A stretch of 30,328 nucleotides of DNA from a virus. The stretch is taken from positions 1-30,328 of IMG/VR virus record IMGVR_UViG_3300022929_000126; one strand, given 5' to 3'. The notes beneath the pieces are model-generated. The model was not told the origin of the DNA. It worked only from the letters and a program-made list of their open reading frames with translations, and ran no database searches. A program made the translations under genes and the position numbers. Positions 1,768 to 30,328 of this stretch are shown piece by piece (within the stretch, counting starts at the first letter, position 1; each line of letters starts with the position of its first letter).

Positions 1768-3321
1768 ATGTCAGACGCAATCGTCAAAAACCTAAGCTTT
1801 GGAAACGAAGCTAAGGAACAATTATTTGAAGGTATAGAAAAACTCACGAAAGCCGTTAGCTCCACATTAGGGGCTAGCGGTAAACGTGTAATATTAGAAG
1901 ATGGGGCGGGAAAACCTGTTATTACAAAAGATGGGGTAACTGTAGCGGATTCAATTATATTATTAGACCCTATAGAAAATATGGGTGCTACGCTTTTAAA
2001 AGAAGCTGCTAGGAAAACTGTTAAAGAAGCTGGCGACGGAACGACAACGGCTACAGTGCTAGCACACTCAATATTAAAACAAGCTTATCCTAAATTAAAA
2101 GAACTTGGCCCTAGAAAAGTAAAACAGGGTATTGATAATGCAGTAGATAAAGTAATAAAGTATCTTGAAAATAATTCTGTTAAAGTAACAGGGGATATGA
2201 TAAATCAAGTTGCTACTATATCTACAAACAATGATAAAGAATTAGGTTCAGTTATTGCAGAAGCTTTTAAATTAGTAGATGAAACAGGTATTGTTATGAT
2301 GGAGCAAACTGAATCATCAGAAACTACCGCAGAACTAATTGATGGTATTCAATATGAACAAGGATTAATTAATTCTCATTTTATTACTAAAAAAGATAAT
2401 AGAGTCGCTGAATTAGAAAAAGCTTATGTATTACTTATAGAATCTCCAGTTGAAAATATAAGAAAAATACAATCAATATTAGAGTTTGTTATTAAAAATA
2501 ATAAACCTCTACTTATAATTGCTGATATGGATCCAACGGTTATTTCAGCATTAGCAATGAATAAAGTAAAAGGTAATATAAAAGTAAATGTTGTAAATGC
2601 TCCAGTATATGGAGTTAATAGAAAAGATACATTTTCTGATATTGCTTTATTAACTGGTGCTACAGTAATAAATGAAGATTTAGGTGATGATATGGATTTG
2701 ATTCAACCTGAGCATTTAGGCTTTTGTGAAAAAGCTGTTACTAATGATACTGAAACAATAATTAAAGTATCTAATATTCCCGAGGCTGTAGAAGAATTAA
2801 TTAAAAGTGTTAAGCAAGATCTTAAAAAAGCAACTGTACCACCTGAAATACAAAAACTTGAGAAAAGAATAGCTAGATTATCAGCTAAAATTTCTACTGT
2901 AAAAGTTGGTGCAGATTCAAGTATAGAATTAAAAGAAAAAACCGATAGGGTTGAAGATGCTATTTGTGCTACAAAAGCCGCTATTAAAGAAGGTATTGTT
3001 GCAGGCGGTGGAGTAGCTTTGTTAAATGCTTCTATGTTTATCAAACCTAAAGATGAAGCTGAAAGCATACTTTTTAATGCAATTAAAGCTCCATATTACA
3101 CTATTTTAGATAATGCTAATATCAATGAACCACATTCAGAAAAAAAAGGATGGGGCTTAGATGTGATAACAGGTAAGTCAGTTAAAATGGTTAAAGCAGG
3201 AATAATTGATCCTTTGCTTGTAACTAAAGCTGCACTTAAAAATGCTGCATCTGTTGCAACTACTATTTTATCTACCGATTGTATAATTAATAATTTAAGA
3301 GTTAATGAAGGCAATAGGTAG
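1768..3321 (+). CDS. groEL: Phage-encoded chaperonin GroEL (Hsp60)
   Basis: A 517-residue group I chaperonin that would form a folding ring driven by ATP in the cytoplasm. The ATP-site signatures are intact: ITKDG at 52-56, GDGTTTATVL at 89-98 (Asp90 corresponds to E. coli Asp87), RVEDA at 394-398 (Asp397 corresponds to catalytic Asp398) and AGGGVAL at 412-418. The equatorial, intermediate and apical regions follow in the usual order, with the apical segment about 190-370 (for example KPLLIIADMD). The protein is about 30 residues shorter than bacterial GroEL and ends at NEGNR without the Gly-Gly-Met tail. It overlaps groES by 17 bases and precedes it, the reverse of the usual bacterial groES-groEL order. 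It probably folds phage structural proteins, either alone or as a host-independent ring. The family assignment is certain; its clients are unknown. Confidence 0.97.
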   Translation: MSDAIVKNLSFGNEAKEQLFEGIEKLTKAVSSTLGASGKRVILEDGAGKPVITKDGVTVADSIILLDPIENMGATLLKEAARKTVKEAGDGTTTATVLAHSILKQAYPKLKELGPRKVKQGIDNAVDKVIKYLENNSVKVTGDMINQVATISTNNDKELGSVIAEAFKLVDETGIVMMEQTESSETTAELIDGIQYEQGLINSHFITKKDNRVAELEKAYVLLIESPVENIRKIQSILEFVIKNNKPLLIIADMDPTVISALAMNKVKGNIKVNVVNAPVYGVNRKDTFSDIALLTGATVINEDLGDDMDLIQPEHLGFCEKAVTNDTETIIKVSNIPEAVEELIKSVKQDLKKATVPPEIQKLEKRIARLSAKISTVKVGADSSIELKEKTDRVEDAICATKAAIKEGIVAGGGVALLNASMFIKPKDEAESILFNAIKAPYYTILDNANINEPHSEKKGWGLDVITGKSVKMVKAGIIDPLLVTKAALKNAASVATTILSTDCIINNLRVNEGNR

Positions 3322-3565
3322 AAACTTAATTATAGAAAAAGAAAAACAAGGATCTTCAAAAACTAAAGGGGGATTAATACTTGGTGAAAAGCAAAGAGAA
3401 GATTTAAGATATAATAAAGCAAAAGTTATATCTATTGGCTCTGAAATTAAAGGTATAAAAGAAAATGATTATATCTATTATGATAGACATGCTGGCCATA
3501 ATATTGAAATAGATAAAAAAATATACCAAGTAATAAAAGATTCTGATATAGTAATAGTTTTATGA
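3305..3565 (+). CDS. groES: Phage-encoded co-chaperonin GroES (short form)
   Basis: An 86-residue GroES-type lid for the chaperonin ring, against about 97 residues in E. coli. The N-terminal strand RNLIIEKE is followed by a mobile loop with GGLIL at 22-26, matching the E. coli GGIVL that docks into GroEL. AKVISIGSEIKGIKENDYIYY is the barrel core, and the C-terminal IYQVIKDSDIVIVL matches the closing strands. Compared with E. coli, about ten residues are missing between the VISIG strand and the ENDYIYY strand, where the roof hairpin normally sits, so this looks like a roofless co-chaperonin as known for T4 gp31. Its ATG lies inside the end of groEL, and its stop overlaps the next start as ATGA, implying translational coupling along the operon. 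Confidence 0.93.
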   Translation: MKAIGRNLIIEKEKQGSSKTKGGLILGEKQREDLRYNKAKVISIGSEIKGIKENDYIYYDRHAGHNIEIDKKIYQVIKDSDIVIVL

Positions 3566-5368: not shown

Positions 5369-5524
5369 ATGCAAAAGGCCAAGGGGGTAGGAGATACTAT
5401 AGAAACAATAACAAAAGTTACGGGTATAAAGTCTGTAGTTGAAACTGTTTCTAAAGGTTTGAACATACCGTGTGGTTGCAAGCATCGAAAAGAAAAGTTA
5501 AACAAAATATTTCCATATAAATAA
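5369..5524 (+). CDS. 51-residue conserved CxC protein
   Basis: A short gene (ATG at 5369, TAA at 5522-5524) encoding MQKAKGVGDTIETITKVTGI, then KSVVETVSKGLNIPCGCKHR, then KEKLNKIFPYK. The pattern is a helix, a Cys35-Gly36-Cys37 turn, then K/R-rich RKEKLNKIFPY. I recognise this tail, with CGC followed by RKEKLNKLFPY-like residues, from small phage proteins found near packaging and lysis genes. The two close cysteines might bind metal in a multimer or form a disulphide. The stop overlaps the next start as TAATG, and the gene fills an otherwise empty gap, so it is very likely real. Function unknown. Confidence 0.75.
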   Translation: MQKAKGVGDTIETITKVTGIKSVVETVSKGLNIPCGCKHRKEKLNKIFPYK

Positions 5525-5841
5525 TGGCTTTTAAAATTTTCCCACCTTACGCATTGAATAATACACCTGTTTATACAGTAGATTTAGAAGATAATGTTTT
5601 AGGCAAAGCAAACAATAATGGTAGCATTATAATAAATAAAAATTTAAATCCTTCTACAATAAAAAAAGTTGTAGATCATGAAATGGTTCATGTAGATCAA
5701 TTTAAAAGAGGGGACTTAAATTATGATGATAAAAACGTATATTGGAAAGGTAAAACTTATTCAAGGTCTAAAATGAAAGAAGGGAGTCCCACCCTACCTT
5801 GGGAAAAAGAAGCTTATAATAAAACTAAACAAACAACTTAA
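5524..5841 (+). CDS. Small HExxH zinc-metallopeptidase-like protein
   Basis: A 105-residue protein with HEMVH at residues 52-56 at the end of the helix TIKKVVDHEMVHVDQFKRGD. The two histidines and glutamate are the zinc ligands and general base of zincins. A glutamate in PWEKEAY (about Glu96) is in a suitable place for the third ligand, as in IrrE-like or other minimal gluzincins. In between lies LNYDDKNVYWKGKTYSRSKM, a stretch I recognise from similar phage proteins. At this size it is only a bare catalytic core. It could trim virion proteins or cut peptidoglycan cross-links during lysis, since it lies between membrane proteins and a holin gene. The motif is clear; the substrate is unknown. 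Confidence 0.75.
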   Translation: MAFKIFPPYALNNTPVYTVDLEDNVLGKANNNGSIIINKNLNPSTIKKVVDHEMVHVDQFKRGDLNYDDKNVYWKGKTYSRSKMKEGSPTLPWEKEAYNKTKQTT

Positions 5842-22565: not shown

Positions 22566-24041
22566 ATGTCAGCAGTAATAGAAGTAAAATATTTTAATAG
22601 CTTTATATTAAGAAAGACTATAAACGTTTCGGACCAACCGGTTTGGAATGGGTCTAATGGCATTCCCCAGGCTATAGGAGGATATAATCGCGGAAATGTT
22701 TCTATTGCCGATGCTCAAACAAGTAAAAACTGGGTTATAGAAGAAGCTAGAATCAGAGGAGGTTATAATAATACCGCTGCTGGATATGGGGCTAAAGCAT
22801 ATTTAGTTGAAGATGAACCAAAAGCTTCTATAAGGTTTAATTCTTTAATATATTCAGGTATATTTAATTCAACTACAGGGGTAAATAATACTAATGAATT
22901 TTCAGTAGGTGAAGATATAACAAGAAGTTTAGACCCCGCTAACGGTTCTATACAAAAATTGTATGCAGAAGATACTAACCTTATTATATTTCAAGAAAAT
23001 AAAGTTAGTAATGCTCTTATAGATAAAGACGCTATTTATACCGCTGAAGGTGCTGGGTTAACAACTACAGGGCAAGTTGTTATAGGACCTGTCAGAGCTT
23101 ATGCTGGAAATTTTGGTATTAGTAGAAACCCAGAAAGCTTTGCGGTTTATGGTTATAGAAAATACTTTACTGATAAAGATAGAAACGCTGTATTAAGATT
23201 ATCTCAAGATGGTATAACAGAAATATCTAATTATGGAATGATTGATTTCTTTAGAGATCAATTTAGTGCTTTAGACAGTTATCAATTAGGACCAGGAAAA
23301 GCAGTTGGAATGTGGGATATTTATAATAAACAATATGTTGTTTCTTTACAGCCTACAAATACTGATAGTTATAAAACTTTAGCTTTTGACGAAAGTGTAA
23401 AAGGTTGGACTAGCTTCTTTAGCTATAAGCCAGCACTAGGTACTAGTTTGAAAAATTTATTTTATACTGTTGACAATGGCACTAAAGCCAATAAGAATGC
23501 AGGATTGTACTTGCATTATAGTCAAAATGTTAATAGAGCACAGTTTTACGGCACAACTTACGATGCATCGATTAAATTTATATTTAATCCTAATGTAAGC
23601 ATGTCAAAAGTGTTTAAAACAATCAATTACGAAGGAAGTAACGGTTGGGAAGTAGATTCATATGTTTCAGATTTTACTGGTATTAGTTCTGTAAATACAG
23701 ACGGAGAATTTAATACTTATGCTACAACCAATACTCAAGATAAAACAGCCGCTATATATAGTTATAATCAAGGTGCTTATGATAACTTTGGAAATCAATT
23801 TCCATCGCAATTAACACCACCTATAAATAGAGCTGGCTTTGATAGAAAAGAAAATAAATATTTTGCTAATTTAGTAAATAATAGTGTTGCGGCACCAGGC
23901 GAAATTATTTATGGCAATCAATTAAGCGGTATAAAAGGGTATTTCGTAACGGTAACAATGTCTACTGATTCTGTTACAAATTATGGCGGACCAAAAGAAT
24001 TATTTGCTGTATCTTCGGAATATGTTGAATCAAGTTATTAA
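22566..24041 (+). CDS. Tail stabilization protein, C-terminal part
   Basis: A 491-residue protein. It has YFNSF at the start, then WVIEEARIRGGYNN, GAKAYLVEDEP, LIYSGIFNSTTGVNNTNEFS, VGEDITRSLDPANGSIQKLY and AEDTNLIIFQENKVSNALID. These blocks, followed by the propeller-like YGYRKYFTDKDRNAVLRLSQ and DGITEISNYGM, are ones I associate with the C-terminal half of the same large tail stabilization protein family. The gene is in a different reading frame from the one before and separated by stops in several frames, so this is a separate gene and not a simple one-base frameshift. It likely forms part of the tail hub. It is followed five bases later by the cupin-like gene. Confidence 0.8.
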   Translation: MSAVIEVKYFNSFILRKTINVSDQPVWNGSNGIPQAIGGYNRGNVSIADAQTSKNWVIEEARIRGGYNNTAAGYGAKAYLVEDEPKASIRFNSLIYSGIFNSTTGVNNTNEFSVGEDITRSLDPANGSIQKLYAEDTNLIIFQENKVSNALIDKDAIYTAEGAGLTTTGQVVIGPVRAYAGNFGISRNPESFAVYGYRKYFTDKDRNAVLRLSQDGITEISNYGMIDFFRDQFSALDSYQLGPGKAVGMWDIYNKQYVVSLQPTNTDSYKTLAFDESVKGWTSFFSYKPALGTSLKNLFYTVDNGTKANKNAGLYLHYSQNVNRAQFYGTTYDASIKFIFNPNVSMSKVFKTINYEGSNGWEVDSYVSDFTGISSVNTDGEFNTYATTNTQDKTAAIYSYNQGAYDNFGNQFPSQLTPPINRAGFDRKENKYFANLVNNSVAAPGEIIYGNQLSGIKGYFVTVTMSTDSVTNYGGPKELFAVSSEYVESSY

Positions 24042-24046
24042 ATTTT

Positions 24047-24433
24047 ATGAAATTAATAAAGACTAAAAATAATAATATTATAATGCACAACAATGGTGGT
24101 ATTGTTGATTGCGGGGATTTTATACCAGTTACCCATGAATTTGCAGATCAAATATATTTAAGAAAAATGGTTATGCAAAAAAATCAAATAGTAGTTGGTG
24201 CGGAACATAAGCATGAACACGTCTGGTTTTTATTAACTGGGAAAGTATTAATTAAAGAGCATGACGAAACAATTATTCATGAGGCACCTTGTTATACAAT
24301 TTCAAAGCCAGGTGCTAAGAGAACAATTATAGCACTAGAAGAATCTATTTTTATGAATGTACATAAAAATCCAGATAACACTAAAGATATTAAAGAACTA
24401 GAAAATCAAATAGTAAAATTATGGCATTTATAG
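24047..24433 (+). CDS. Cupin-like protein in the tail module
   Basis: A 128-residue beta-barrel protein. The cupin motif 1 is GAEHKHEHVWFLLTGKVLI, with His54, His56 and His58 placed as metal ligands and Gly65 in the turn. A second motif is CYTISKPGAKRTIIALEESI followed by FMNVHKNP, with His106 a possible further ligand. I recognise the KHEHVWFL and PCYTxSxPGAKR patterns from small proteins in the tail region of marine phages. The metal and substrate are unknown; it could be a structural beta-barrel in the tail or tail tip rather than an enzyme. It overlaps the next gene by 13 bases. Confidence 0.75.
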   Translation: MKLIKTKNNNIIMHNNGGIVDCGDFIPVTHEFADQIYLRKMVMQKNQIVVGAEHKHEHVWFLLTGKVLIKEHDETIIHEAPCYTISKPGAKRTIIALEESIFMNVHKNPDNTKDIKELENQIVKLWHL

Positions 24434-25149
24434 CAGGAGCAGCAATAATTGGTGGTATCGCAACCATAGGAGGTAGTTTAATAGGCGCTAATCAAGCAAA
24501 AAAAGCTAGACAACAAGCAGAAGGAAAAGAAAGAGCTCTTCGGACCGAAATGGCTGCAGCAGAAAAACAAAGGTCTCCTGTAATAAATCCTTATGCAGGA
24601 GTTAAAGATCTTTCAGATAAAATAAAAGATTTAAGCGGAATGATTGATAATCCATATGATAATTTAGGGGTTGCAACACAAGCCTCAAAAATTCAAATGG
24701 AACAAAGTGATATTGCTCTTGCTAATACCTTAGACATATTAGCTGCCACAGGCGCTAGTGCAGGGGGCGCTACTGCACTTGCTCAAGCGGCATTAGCTAG
24801 TAAAAAAGGTGTAGCCGCTAGTATTGAAACCCAAGAAGCTTATAATGAAAAATTAAGGGCTCAAGGAGAAGCTACCTTGCAACAACAGCAAATGGCGGAA
24901 GCACTAAGAGTTCAGGATGCTGAATTTAGAGAAGCTGGAAGGTTACAAGAGGTTGATGTTGCTGGCAGAAAATATGTTTACGAAGAAGAAGATAGAAGAA
25001 CCGAACAGCAACTAAATAGATTACAGGCACAAATAACTGGTCAACAACAAGCACAAGCCGCCGCAAGAGAACAAGGTGCTAACGCAATCGCCGGCGGCAT
25101 AGCGGGGGTATCTGGTATTGCCTCATCATATATGGAGGCTAAATCGTAA
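24421..25149 (+). CDS. Internal virion / tail-ejection protein, helical
   Basis: A 242-residue protein with a Gly/Ala/Ile-rich hydrophobic N-terminus (residues 2-24, FIAGAAIIGGIATIGGSLIG), then long Ala/Gln/Glu-rich helices: KARQQAEGKERALRTEMAAA, LANTLDILAATGASAGGATA, and a coiled-coil C-terminal half with runs of Gln/Arg (RRTEQQLNRLQAQITGQQQA). It ends GIAGVSGIASSYMEAKS. This is the composition of podovirus proteins that are packed in the head or tail and ejected into the host to help DNA cross the envelope (compare the role of T7 gp14). It sits between tail genes and two large unknown genes, consistent with a cargo role. Confidence 0.7.
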   Translation: MAFIAGAAIIGGIATIGGSLIGANQAKKARQQAEGKERALRTEMAAAEKQRSPVINPYAGVKDLSDKIKDLSGMIDNPYDNLGVATQASKIQMEQSDIALANTLDILAATGASAGGATALAQAALASKKGVAASIETQEAYNEKLRAQGEATLQQQQMAEALRVQDAEFREAGRLQEVDVAGRKYVYEEEDRRTEQQLNRLQAQITGQQQAQAAAREQGANAIAGGIAGVSGIASSYMEAKS

Positions 25150-25166: not shown

Positions 25167-26588
25167 ATGGGAGCATACGAAAATCCACAAACAGTTATAA
25201 CTGATACTTCTTCTGCTTGGACAAATATGTCTAAGATTATTGCTAATAATACCGTAAGTTTTTTAGAAAAGCAAAGTGCCGTAAGAAATGCTGAACTTAA
25301 AAAGAGGGAGGAAGCAGATGTCAATATGGGTACTAAACTTGTTGACTTTAGGAATACAGCAATCAGGGAATTAAATAAAGTTAGTGCAAATAAAAAAGAA
25401 AGAGAATTATATATGAGTACCTTAGATGATGCCTTTATGTATTCTGAAGCAGTTATTAACGCAAAATCTACAGAAGAAAAAAAGATTGCTCTTCAGAATT
25501 ATGATTCTACTCAAAATAAATTAAATAGTATATTAGATTTTGCAGAAAATAGGCCAAAATTTGTGGAATATTTTGAATCAAATAATAATTTAACAGCTAG
25601 AGCCCAAGAAGGCGGTTGGTCTGTAGAAGGTGGGTTTGAAAATTATAACGATTTTATTGATTACGGCACAGGTTGGACTTCTGGTTTGTCAGCTGTAGAT
25701 TATGGATTTGACGAAAATGACTATTTAACATTAATAATAGCAGATCCTTTAGGTGTAAAACCACCAAAATCATTTAATGCTGCAGAATTTTTAACTACAA
25801 GACCCCCTATAACACCTAAAATTACTGAGTATACAAAAAAGAAACTTATAGATAAAGGCATACTTAATCCTAAAGATCCTAGTAAATTATCAGATGAATA
25901 TAATAAAATGTCAAGGGATCAATTAGAAGCTTTAGTAGCTGCGGAAATTTTAAGTCCTGTGGCGCAAGGTATTTTAACCAATCCAAATGATACACAAAGT
26001 ATATGGGCTAACGTTCTAAAAGGTAAAGATAGACTAGGGTACCCCCCGCCTGGTAGTAAGAATTTTCCAATTGAAGGATCACCATTTACTAAAGAGAGTT
26101 ATGAAGCTTTTCTTGATACTTTTCAAGATTGGGGATTAAGAAATTTATTACCTAAAAATCATATAGTATCCGTAAAAACTGTAGATGAAGACACCGCCCC
26201 CCCAGAAATACAAGCGGAAAATAGGTTCAACTTATATATGCAAGATTTAGGGGTTGCTTGGGCTGAGGCTACGGGAGAGACAGCTATTTTTGACCCTAAA
26301 ACAAATATAGTTACAGTATCAGTAGAAGAGCAAGATGCGGATGGTAACATGATTATAACCCCTGAGCTGTGGGATTTAAATCAGCCAGGTATTTTTGTTA
26401 ATTATATTAAGCGATTAACAGAAAAAGATCCAAAATTTAAAGGTATATCCCAAAAAAAGCAGTATGTAGTAGATCTTTTACTTGCAAAAGCCAGGGCTAG
26501 AGCAAATGAATTCGTGCCTAAACCAACTGAAGCTGAAGATTATAAAGGTTTTGAAGATTATCTAACTGGTCAAATTAAAACAGACTAA
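25167..26588 (+). CDS. Putative internal virion protein
   Basis: A 473-residue protein. Residues about 1-130 are helical and charged (for example IIANNTVSFLEKQSAVRNAE, RELNKVSANKKERELYMSTL), like a coiled-coil region. The middle includes DYGTGWTSGLSAVDYGFDEN and PPITPKITEYTKKKLIDKG, and the end is KPTEAEDYKGFEDYLTGQ. I recognise the opening plan (MGxYENPxxVIxxT-xxAxxNMxK-like) from proteins in this slot of related marine phages. No catalytic motif is seen. By position between the ejection-type protein and the giant HEYFH protein, it is likely a virion cargo protein. Function is not known. Confidence 0.7.
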   Translation: MGAYENPQTVITDTSSAWTNMSKIIANNTVSFLEKQSAVRNAELKKREEADVNMGTKLVDFRNTAIRELNKVSANKKERELYMSTLDDAFMYSEAVINAKSTEEKKIALQNYDSTQNKLNSILDFAENRPKFVEYFESNNNLTARAQEGGWSVEGGFENYNDFIDYGTGWTSGLSAVDYGFDENDYLTLIIADPLGVKPPKSFNAAEFLTTRPPITPKITEYTKKKLIDKGILNPKDPSKLSDEYNKMSRDQLEALVAAEILSPVAQGILTNPNDTQSIWANVLKGKDRLGYPPPGSKNFPIEGSPFTKESYEAFLDTFQDWGLRNLLPKNHIVSVKTVDEDTAPPEIQAENRFNLYMQDLGVAWAEATGETAIFDPKTNIVTVSVEEQDADGNMIITPELWDLNQPGIFVNYIKRLTEKDPKFKGISQKKQYVVDLLLAKARARANEFVPKPTEAEDYKGFEDYLTGQIKTD

Positions 26589-26591
26589 AAC

Positions 26592-29500
26592 ATGTTTAAA
26601 AAATTAAATCATAACGGCAATAATTTTGAATTTCCTGATAACGAAAAAGGAAAAAAAGATTACGAAGCTTTTATTGCCAAATTTCCAGATGCTATAGAGG
26701 TAGCAATTACCCCCGACCCCGATAAGGAGGGAAAGGAAACCCCTTCACAGGAGATAAAGAGTGCGCCTGTGGAGGAAAGTGTAGCACTCGAGCCTACCGT
26801 TACGGATTCCAAGCCGGTAGTTATTTCATCGGATTTACCAAAGATTAAAACTGGTACCGTTGCAGATACAGAATATATTCCACCCATTATAACTTCAAAA
26901 GAATCGCAGAAAATTATTGATGATTTTAATAAAGTAAGTAATATTGATATTGAATTTGAAAATAAAAAAGCAACTGTAGAAAAAATAAATAGATTTAAAA
27001 AAGATCAATTTAAAACTGCTGAAAGAGAAGAATATAATTTATATAAACAAACCGGAAAAGTACAACCTATTATATTAGAAGACGCGGAAATAAAACAAAA
27101 AATTGAAAATAACAGAAGAGATTTTATGGAAGATATTGCACAAGATAAACGTGTGCAATTACTTAATCAAGAAACAAAACTTAGAGATGCTTTACTTAAT
27201 ACTACTAATGAATTAGCTTCTAAAATAAACTCCAATATAGATTCTGTTAATAATATTATTTCTCAATATGAAGAAAGCGTTAAGCAAAACGTTCCATATT
27301 CAGAAGATGAATATAATATAGCAAAACAAAAATCTCAAGAAATTATAAAATCTACTAAGCAAATGGAAAGTGATTTGCTGAGGGATCTTGCTATTTTAAA
27401 TAAAAAAAATGAGTTTATAGATTCTTTTAAAAGATCTTATAGTAATATAGATCAACTAGAAAATGTTTTAAAAACAACAGCTACCGATATAGCTTTGGGT
27501 TTAGCAGTGCCGTTAGACATGCTTAAATCCGAAGAAGGAAAAGAAAAATCTTACTCCAAAGACTTATTAAATTACCGACAAAAACTTCAGAAAGAATCTG
27601 CCGAAGGTTTACCAAAAGCTATACCAGTAGAAAGTATTTCAAGCTTTAAAGATCTTGTAAACTGGGGGTCAGATAGTTTTGTAAATTTTGTGCCAAGCGG
27701 CGTTATGGCATTCACTGGTGCCGCCGCTCCTTATTTATTTGGGGCATCTGGTTTTGGAAGCCGAATGGCTCAATTTGAGTTAGAAGCTTTAGAGGCTAAA
27801 AATCAACTTCCTAAATTATTAGAATTACAGGATAAGTCAGACGATCCTTTAGAGCAGGCTGAAATAAAAAAAGAAATAGATAAATATAATGAAGCCTTAA
27901 ATGTAAGCAACTTAAAAAAACTTGCCGTTAGTGGAATATACGGGGCAGCAGAAGTAGGAACTGAAATGCTAACTACGGTAAGATTAGTAAAAGATTTAAA
28001 ATCAGCTAATACGTTGTTTTACAAAGAAGGCTTCGGGCCAGCTTTTAAACAAGCAATAAAAGATATACCTACAGGAGGCACACTCGAGGGGGGTGGCGAG
28101 GGCTTAAATGCTATTATTGGAAATATAGCTGATATAACTATATTAGGAGAAGATAAAAATGTACTTGATGGGGTTACGGAATCCGCCGCTCAAGGGTTTT
28201 TTATTGGTAATGGCTTTAAAGTAGCTAATGCTGGGAGCTTGGCTAAAGCTTACGCTTATGATGTTATTACAGATAAGCAAAACAAACAAGAAATTGAAAA
28301 AATATTAAAAGAAATAAATAGTCTTTCAGGTGCTTTTACAGAAGATACTGATATAAACACTAAAGCTGAAGCCGCTCGTGTTATAAGATCTAAAATTAAA
28401 GAGCTATCATTAAACCAAGATTTTACAGCTTCTCAATTTTTAAAGCTTTCTGAGGCTGACCAAAAAGCTGTTTTTGAAGCTGATAGGCAATCTAAAAAAG
28501 TAAATGAAAGATGGAAAAAAATAGCTAATTCTAACTTAGACGAAACTAGTAAAGATTTAATTAGAAAAGATCTTGAATCAGAATTTAATAGCTATCAAGA
28601 TAAAAAAATATCTTTACTTAGAAAATCTAATGTAAATACAGAATTACAGCAGCCTAAAGGATTACAAGAAGGAGATTTTTATAGAGGATATAAAATACAT
28701 CAAGTTAACGATGCAGCGGTAAAAAGAAATAATTCTTTAAATAAGCTTGCAAACAAAGTTGTTAATGTTTTAAGCAGTGAAGCTGAAACAATAAATGATT
28801 TTATTAATTCAGACGAAACACTGTTAACATTAAATGACGGAAGTGTAATTACGAAAGAAGATGCGCAACAAATTAATCAAATTTGGGAAAGTGGTTCTGA
28901 TGGGGGATTTGATCGCATCAGTAAAAATCAATATACTATTATTGAAAGAGCTGCGGTAAATAATCCATCTACAGCTTTGCATGAATATTTTCATGCTATG
29001 GCCGCCGAAAAAGGCTTTACAGAAGAACAATATAATAAAATAAAAGATGATTATATAAAACTGCTAAAAGCTAAAAAAGAAAGTGGAGAGTTAACAGAAA
29101 AACAGTATAATGAAATTTTCAGCAGACTTCCTTTATATAATGGAACTACGGCACAAGCGGAAGAATTAATTAACTTAACAGCTGATGCGGTAAACTTGCA
29201 AATAATTAAAGAAACAGATTTTAATTTTTTACAAAGATTTGCTAATAATGTTAAATCTATAGTAGGTTCTATAATAGGCAAAGATGAGGCTGATAATTTT
29301 AATATTAATACAGCAGAAGACGCCTGGAATATGGTGCAAACTTTTTCTAAAGATGTATTAAGTTCTGCTCCTCAAAAGCGAATTATAGGTACTCAACCTG
29401 AAGAAGAAGATACAGCTACTAAAAAAGTCGAAACAGTAATTAAAGAATCAAGATCTGAAGAAGCATCTAATAAAGTTCAAGAAATATATGAACAAAAAGG

Positions 29501-30328
29501 TATTAATGGCGCTTTAGATATAATAGAGCAGTTTAAACCTATAACTAATAAAATAGTAGATCAGCGTAAAAACGCACCAAACTTTGATAGGCAATTACTT
29601 ACTGATGAAATTGAAACAGGCGCGGGTGGTATACTTGATTTAATACAAGCGTATGATCCTGCTTCTAATGTTCCTTTAGCTGCATATATAAATAAATATC
29701 TTCCAGTAAGAGCTATAACTGCATCACGTAGAGTATTGGGTGAAGAGTTTATAGATGATATTACTGAATCTGTCCAAGTAGCTGCAGAGACTGCCCCTGA
29801 AGTAGAAATTGAAGTTGCAGAAACAAAACCTACAGAAAAATTAATTGAAGTTAAAAAACAAGTTCTTAGTGAATCTAATCAAAAAGAACTTGAAGATATA
29901 GTAGCAGAAAAGCTACCTGAATTAACTCCAGATCAATTTACATTTAAAACATTGCCTAACTGGGCAAAACAAACACTTGCTAAAGAAATTGATATACCGG
30001 TTAAGAAATTTGAGGGATCTTCTAATTTTACACAAGCAGAATTAAATAGAGTTATTTCATTTATAGAAAATAACATTGATACAGTTAGGAAAGCTTTGCC
30101 TGATGCTGCTGTATTAGAAGGCGCTCCAGTAAGCGAAGGATTAATAGGTACTGCTACTGGTGTGCCTAATAATTTATTAAAAGATACAAATTTATATACT
30201 AGACTCGAAAGAGGTACAAAGAAAGCGGGATTAGTTCCTTTTCAAAAAAATAAAGGTATTGACAATAGGTCTGTCCTGAAAGCTATAGGTGTTATTGAAG
30301 GAACGAGAACTGCTGGCCCAAGGGATAA
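26592..30328 (+). CDS. Giant virion protein with HEYFH metalloprotease motif (runs off window)
   Basis: Open from ATG at 26592 to the window end, 1245 codons plus two bases, so the stop lies outside. In order: a Pro/Glu-rich linker (about 30-110), long charged coiled-coil helices (about 120-330), hydrophobic/Gly-rich stretches (about 365-390, FVNFVPSGVMAFTGAAAPYL; about 447-462; about 495-520), more helices, and HEYFH at 797-801 inside STALHEYFHAMAAEKG. A glutamate near 857 (AQAEELINLTADAV) could be the third zinc ligand. C-terminal regions are Glu/Lys-rich linkers. Long multi-domain proteins with a protease core are typical of ejected internal virion proteins. The start choice, three bases after the preceding stop, is supported by the A/T-rich context. 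Zincin is motif-based; the role is inferred. Confidence 0.8.
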   Translation, partial: MFKKLNHNGNNFEFPDNEKGKKDYEAFIAKFPDAIEVAITPDPDKEGKETPSQEIKSAPVEESVALEPTVTDSKPVVISSDLPKIKTGTVADTEYIPPIITSKESQKIIDDFNKVSNIDIEFENKKATVEKINRFKKDQFKTAEREEYNLYKQTGKVQPIILEDAEIKQKIENNRRDFMEDIAQDKRVQLLNQETKLRDALLNTTNELASKINSNIDSVNNIISQYEESVKQNVPYSEDEYNIAKQKSQEIIKSTKQMESDLLRDLAILNKKNEFIDSFKRSYSNIDQLENVLKTTATDIALGLAVPLDMLKSEEGKEKSYSKDLLNYRQKLQKESAEGLPKAIPVESISSFKDLVNWGSDSFVNFVPSGVMAFTGAAAPYLFGASGFGSRMAQFELEALEAKNQLPKLLELQDKSDDPLEQAEIKKEIDKYNEALNVSNLKKLAVSGIYGAAEVGTEMLTTVRLVKDLKSANTLFYKEGFGPAFKQAIKDIPTGGTLEGGGEGLNAIIGNIADITILGEDKNVLDGVTESAAQGFFIGNGFKVANAGSLAKAYAYDVITDKQNKQEIEKILKEINSLSGAFTEDTDINTKAEAARVIRSKIKELSLNQDFTASQFLKLSEADQKAVFEADRQSKKVNERWKKIANSNLDETSKDLIRKDLESEFNSYQDKKISLLRKSNVNTELQQPKGLQEGDFYRGYKIHQVNDAAVKRNNSLNKLANKVVNVLSSEAETINDFINSDETLLTLNDGSVITKEDAQQINQIWESGSDGGFDRISKNQYTIIERAAVNNPSTALHEYFHAMAAEKGFTEEQYNKIKDDYIKLLKAKKESGELTEKQYNEIFSRLPLYNGTTAQAEELINLTADAVNLQIIKETDFNFLQRFANNVKSIVGSIIGKDEADNFNINTAEDAWNMVQTFSKDVLSSAPQKRIIGTQPEEEDTATKKVETVIKESRSEEASNKVQEIYEQKGINGALDIIEQFKPITNKIVDQRKNAPNFDRQLLTDEIETGAGGILDLIQAYDPASNVPLAAYINKYLPVRAITASRRVLGEEFIDDITESVQVAAETAPEVEIEVAETKPTEKLIEVKKQVLSESNQKELEDIVAEKLPELTPDQFTFKTLPNWAKQTLAKEIDIPVKKFEGSSNFTQAELNRVISFIENNIDTVRKALPDAAVLEGAPVSEGLIGTATGVPNNLLKDTNLYTRLERGTKKAGLVPFQKNKGIDNRSVLKAIGVIEGTRTAGPRD

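Follow-up and report, generated by a model that had tools for sequence, protein, structure and literature searches.

The window analysed here is a virus record of 30,328 bases, and a longer contig (L002, IMGVR_UViG_3300022905_000018) is identical to it across 13,737 shared bases. A very large late gene (26592–30328, plus strand) starts with an ATG at 26592 and stays open to the window end (ORF 26592–30326, at least 1245 amino acids). The initial annotation had described this open gene of more than 3.7 kb and suggested obtaining the sequence downstream; L002 provides it, with a complete gene (L002:10001–17569) that encodes 2522 amino acids, the window holding the 5' part (1245 of the 2522 codons). 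The late block runs through the portal, capsid and tail genes and ends with the giant. Directly upstream, a gene for a 473-residue protein (25167–26588, plus strand) occupies the same place as that of phi40:1 gp100, which was detected by MS/MS, and from its position it is a candidate second internal virion protein. It is preceded by a gene for 242 residues with a Gly/Ala-rich start (24421–25149, plus strand), which on position and sequence may encode a small internal virion protein. Family searches gave no match for either of them.

Other genes of this virus deserve mention. Upstream of the terminase, a GroEL-type chaperonin gene (Cpn60, 1768–3321, E 6e-60) adjoins a GroES-type one (Cpn10, 3305–3565, E 5e-14). 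Positions 5524–5841 encode a separate, second HExxH protein (105 amino acids, HEMVH), for which Pfam gives a weak match to DUF6782 (putative metallopeptidases); its relatives occur as a C-terminal fusion to the giant in L023, L024 and L025 (with HEKKH) and as a stand-alone gene in L051. Shortly downstream of the giant, a small M15-type peptidase gene (L002:17993–18325, E 1.6e-11) likely encodes an endolysin.

The terminase, portal and capsid proteins match those of phages of Flavobacterium (elemo), Cellulophaga and Maribacter and of the uncultured Manatee Spring virus, and Tenacibaculum phage Gundel_1 matches the terminase and portal. Searches of named phages by tblastn gave only weak matches, Gundel_1 included. 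Relatives found in genome bins (n = 18) lie in Bacteroidota bins in seven cases, the other bins being mixed, with binning errors possible. A tail gene at 22566–24041 matches the C-terminal domain of the crassvirus muzzle protein (E 9.5e-13). Considering the terminase, portal and capsid matches, the muzzle domain and the bins, the window virus probably has a short tail and infects marine Bacteroidota. Found alongside a terminase and capsid that match those of Cellulophaga and Flavobacterium podoviruses, this muzzle domain hints at a tail architecture common with crassviruses.

The N-terminal region of the giant is a chassis common with known virion giants. Residues ~330–678 (27579–28625, plus strand) are homologous to phi40:1 gp101 and phi46:3 gp120 (hhalign of the window family against both: probability 98.2, E 3.5e-14; blastp to gp101: E 1.4e-13). 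The record of phi40:1 annotates gp101 as structural, from MS/MS of virions, and the giants of elemo and phi40:1 likewise end the late block. As gp101 (1691 amino acids) contains no zincin, the chassis, not the peptidase, is the common part. The homology to gp101 and the position of the gene make it likely that the giant is a virion protein in the window virus as well, which supports, indirectly, the virion-carried part of the ejection-type protein initially proposed; that it is ejected into the cell is suggested by analogy with N4 and the crassviruses. The hydrophobic segments that had been noted are present (e.g., residues 366–384 and 500–518) but modest, since the maximal 19-residue Kyte-Doolittle mean of 1.26 is below that of a typical transmembrane helix.

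The sole HExxH of the window ORF is HEYFH, at residues 797–801 (28980–28994, plus strand). H797 and H801 are the predicted zinc ligands and E798 the predicted general base, while E858 (29163–29165, plus strand), in a later helix, would be the third ligand. In shuffled versions of the complete protein, an HExxH arises in about 0.2% of the shuffles. The relatives were gathered with the conserved C-terminal domain as query, not with the zincin, so that the sample is unselected for HExxH; the motif is found upstream of this common domain in 68 of the 74 complete representative relatives, for 0.2 expected from shuffling. H797, E798, H801 and E858 are invariant in all 67 aligned domains, and Y849 and an Asp or Glu at position 865 are nearly so. 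In the 69-sequence alignment these four residues are the only invariant columns, the mean column identity being 18%, whereas the C-terminal domain keeps 63% identity (n = 10 giants). Of 98 complete giants, 96 are recognised by a profile of the zincin domain, which also detects the domain in the elemo, Gundel_1 and MW202828 giants, none of which had contributed to the profile. This comparison confirms that the HEYFH motif is more than a chance occurrence, and the Glu ligand that the initial annotation had thought plausible downstream of it can be assigned, on conservation, to E858.

Residues 713–947 (28728–29432, plus strand) were modelled as a zincin-like metallopeptidase domain by AlphaFold2, the confident part being ~722–920. 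The model based on 69 sequences has a mean pLDDT of 76.3 and a pTM of 0.67. It consists of strands 10–15, 32–34, 40–42 and 70–75, followed by the HExxH helix (80–95) and the helix with the putative Glu ligand (141–156; adding 712 gives the protein numbering). As modelled, this order fits that of the polyvalent metallopeptidases (MPTases) described by Iyer et al. (2017, PMC5512222). An earlier model built from 15 sequences was of low quality (pLDDT 57), and its hits in the PDB, myoglobins among others, were discarded as noise.

A Foldseek search of the model against PDB and BFVD returned nothing significant (all hits E > 0.1), its weak BFVD hits including the Gundel_1 and elemo giants, and no credible hit came from a profile search of the PDB based on the deep alignment. 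Pfam scans of the member domains gave recurrent weak matches, mostly to zincin families (M78, SprT, DUF3267, DUF6782), but no curated peptidase family was above cut-off for the window protein, the complete protein or the 69 zincin domains. When the complete protein and its part encoded in the window were searched against Pfam, PHROGs, NCBIfam and PDB sequences, DUF6934 was the only informative family. The giant very probably contains a zincin-type domain, as judged from the four conserved residues expected of a zincin, the predicted order of strands and helices and the weak family matches. The fold itself is probable but short of proof, as none of the solved structures gave a significant match.

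The domain is not present in every giant. The profile does not find it in those of phi40:1, phi46:3, Panino, L022 and L045, which shows that the zincin is not essential to the chassis. These zincin-less giants are short (1439–2232 amino acids, for a median of 2522), the difference remaining after subtraction of 250 residues (P = 0.003). In four other giants (L038, L039, L046 and L061) the first His is replaced by Glu (EELFH) and the Glu of the third ligand is kept. These EExxH domains form one clade (support 0.88) but occur at three places on the tree of the C-terminal domain. It follows that the zincin is exchanged between giants, and that the form with the changed first His has spread.

The giant contains several distinct domains, most of them unnamed: the zincin, DUF6934, the conserved C-terminal domain and the exchangeable stretch between. 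Homology between relatives often breaks off between the zincin and the C-terminal domain, which means that this stretch is exchanged. In the complete protein, a piece of this stretch searched by itself matches DUF6934 above the cut-off of that family. Several giants have in common a conserved block, DLIQAYDPASNVPLAAYINKYLPVRAI...FIDDITE (residues ~1010–1075, window ~29619–29816), whose resemblance by eye to a sigma-factor region was not supported by Pfam.

The short motif [FY]SK is frequent in the exchanged stretch. In statistics which are exploratory, since the motif was found after looking and the relatives are non-independent samples, it occurs 84 times between the zincin and the C-terminal domain, for 27 expected (threefold), and 25 times at the border of the C-terminal domain, for 1.7 expected; homology ends at [FY]S[KRL] in 16 of 67 cases, for three at random. 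The reversed motif is not enriched, and [FY]SK is only slightly more frequent than expected in the remaining long ORFs of these viruses (69 for 56). The broader hydrophobic-S-K pattern (LSK, ISK) is enriched too, whereas a stricter motif with a basic residue, [RK][LIVAM]x[FY]S, hardly is (47 for 37 expected) and was abandoned. A linker of the form [RK]-[IL]-[LK]-[FY]-S-[KL] recurs at module borders; in the L002 giant it is seen at residues ~1288, 1464, 1803 and 1848, all beyond the window. The [FY]SK sites could be cleavage sites of the zincin, flexible linkers, or recombination joints between modules. The EExxH giants still contain the motif, in excess in most of them, and the more distant giants of elemo, Gundel_1 and MW202828 carry the zincin with no such excess. 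Both observations weaken the link between motif and peptidase, and the first leaves it unproven.

Iyer et al. (PMC5512222) described 12 clades of MPTases and have already proposed that zincins process polyvalent proteins. P1 DdrB is cleaved before packaging, and the N4 virion RNA polymerase (vRNAP) has a zincin domain and is packaged uncut (PMC5512222). Like these phage polyvalent proteins, the giant is very large, made of many modules and encoded beside virion genes, and its internal HExxH domain is predicted to have the same succession of strands and helices, with a Glu located in a helix further on. It differs in that neither the complete protein nor the 69 zincin domains match a Pfam LPD or polyvalent MPTase model, and in that the modules after the zincin are mostly unrecognised, DUF6934 apart. 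In the absence of such a match, the sequence comparison suggests that the giant works like the phage polyvalent proteins (N4 vRNAP, P1 DdrB) and represents a new family among them, outside the Pfam and PHROGs models.

The vRNAP of coliphage N4 (gp50, Schitoviridae), which is packaged and ejected, is also a giant with an HExxH zincin-like domain (C1, residues 2124–2375, PMC12633501). The zincin of the window family lies in the middle of the protein instead of C-terminal to a polymerase, and Pfam, NCBIfam, PHROGs and PDB sequences gave no match to an RNA polymerase domain. In Bacteroidota phages, phi40:1 gp101 is similar in its N-terminal region and its place at the end of the late block, and was found in virions, but has no zincin, while the elemo, Gundel_1 and MW202828 giants carry one. 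The records of these four phages annotate no peptidase in the giant. The cargo proteins gp45–gp50 of the crassvirus phicrAss001 are internal to another short-tailed virus of Bacteroidota and are believed to leave through the tail in a partly unfolded state (PMC10172136). The window virus resembles the crassviruses in encoding the muzzle C-terminal domain, but the searches run found no homology between these cargo proteins and the giant, and PMC10172136 mentions no peptidase.

Taken as a whole, we lean towards the view that the giant is a phage-type polyvalent protein which is packaged, ejected and processed by its own zincin. The protein would be assembled into the virion on its N-terminal chassis and delivered into the cell. 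The zincin in its middle, with H797, H801 and E858 binding zinc and E798 acting as general base, would cut the giant itself, either during maturation or after ejection. The exchangeable modules that follow, and the strongly conserved C-terminal domain, could then be delivered or act separately. Self-processing is the favoured reading because of the retention of the zincin amid varying modules, the short length of the zincin-less giants, the [FY]SK enrichment, and the published proposal together with the P1 DdrB precedent. The structural and curated-family searches that gave no significant match, the existence of zincin-less giants and of EExxH forms, the distant giants with no excess of [FY]SK and the uncut packaging of N4 vRNAP (PMC5512222) argue against it. 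A more specific version, which we consider speculative, is that the zincin is a built-in maturation protease recognising a linker like [LIV]-K-[FY]-S-K-[ST] at module borders, the modules being swapped border to border and freed on delivery.

The initial annotation had also considered that the peptidase might act on the cell wall or on a defence protein of the host. No finding points to such targets, and self-processing fits better since the zincin is kept whatever the variable modules are. More generally, the zincin could be an injected effector which cuts a host protein (e.g., for defence or regulation) or an envelope component at entry, the giant being a mere vehicle. MPTases of polyvalent proteins acting on host proteins are indeed proposed as an alternative in PMC5512222, and the fast divergence outside the active site is what an arms-race effector would show. 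However, nearly all relatives have a single zincin per giant, in a comparable position and regardless of which modules adjoin it; no peptidoglycan-peptidase family is matched, and L002 has a separate M15-type gene just downstream. We therefore judge an effector role rather unlikely.

It is also doubtful that the domain serves chiefly a structural or regulatory purpose in the virion (e.g., in packaging or folding of the giant), with catalysis secondary or lost in some lineages. This idea would explain why EExxH versions persist and are exchanged between lineages, and the MPTase region of N4 vRNAP is needed for encapsidation of a protein that stays uncut (PMC5512222), but the invariance of H, E, H and E in 67 domains amid drift is the pattern expected from selection for catalysis. 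A chance origin of HEYFH, in a helical structural protein that has no peptidase, would agree with the empty Foldseek and curated-family searches, but is very improbable in view of the 68 occurrences in 74 relatives for 0.2 expected and of E858 in 67 of 67 domains.

The polyvalent zincin build is already known; what is new here is this family of giants, together with its mobile EExxH domains and the motif at the module borders. This unannotated and abundant family of giants of marine Bacteroidota phages (at least 596 related stretches) is tied to the zincin-bearing polyvalent proteins. If the zincin does recognise the module borders, the giant would be a delivery cassette that cuts itself, with a cleavage code that can be read. 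The predicted catalytic residues, the natural EExxH series and the candidate cleavage sites offer a concrete test of the published self-processing proposal, and the availability of isolated phages with the domain (elemo, Gundel_1) makes this proposal testable.
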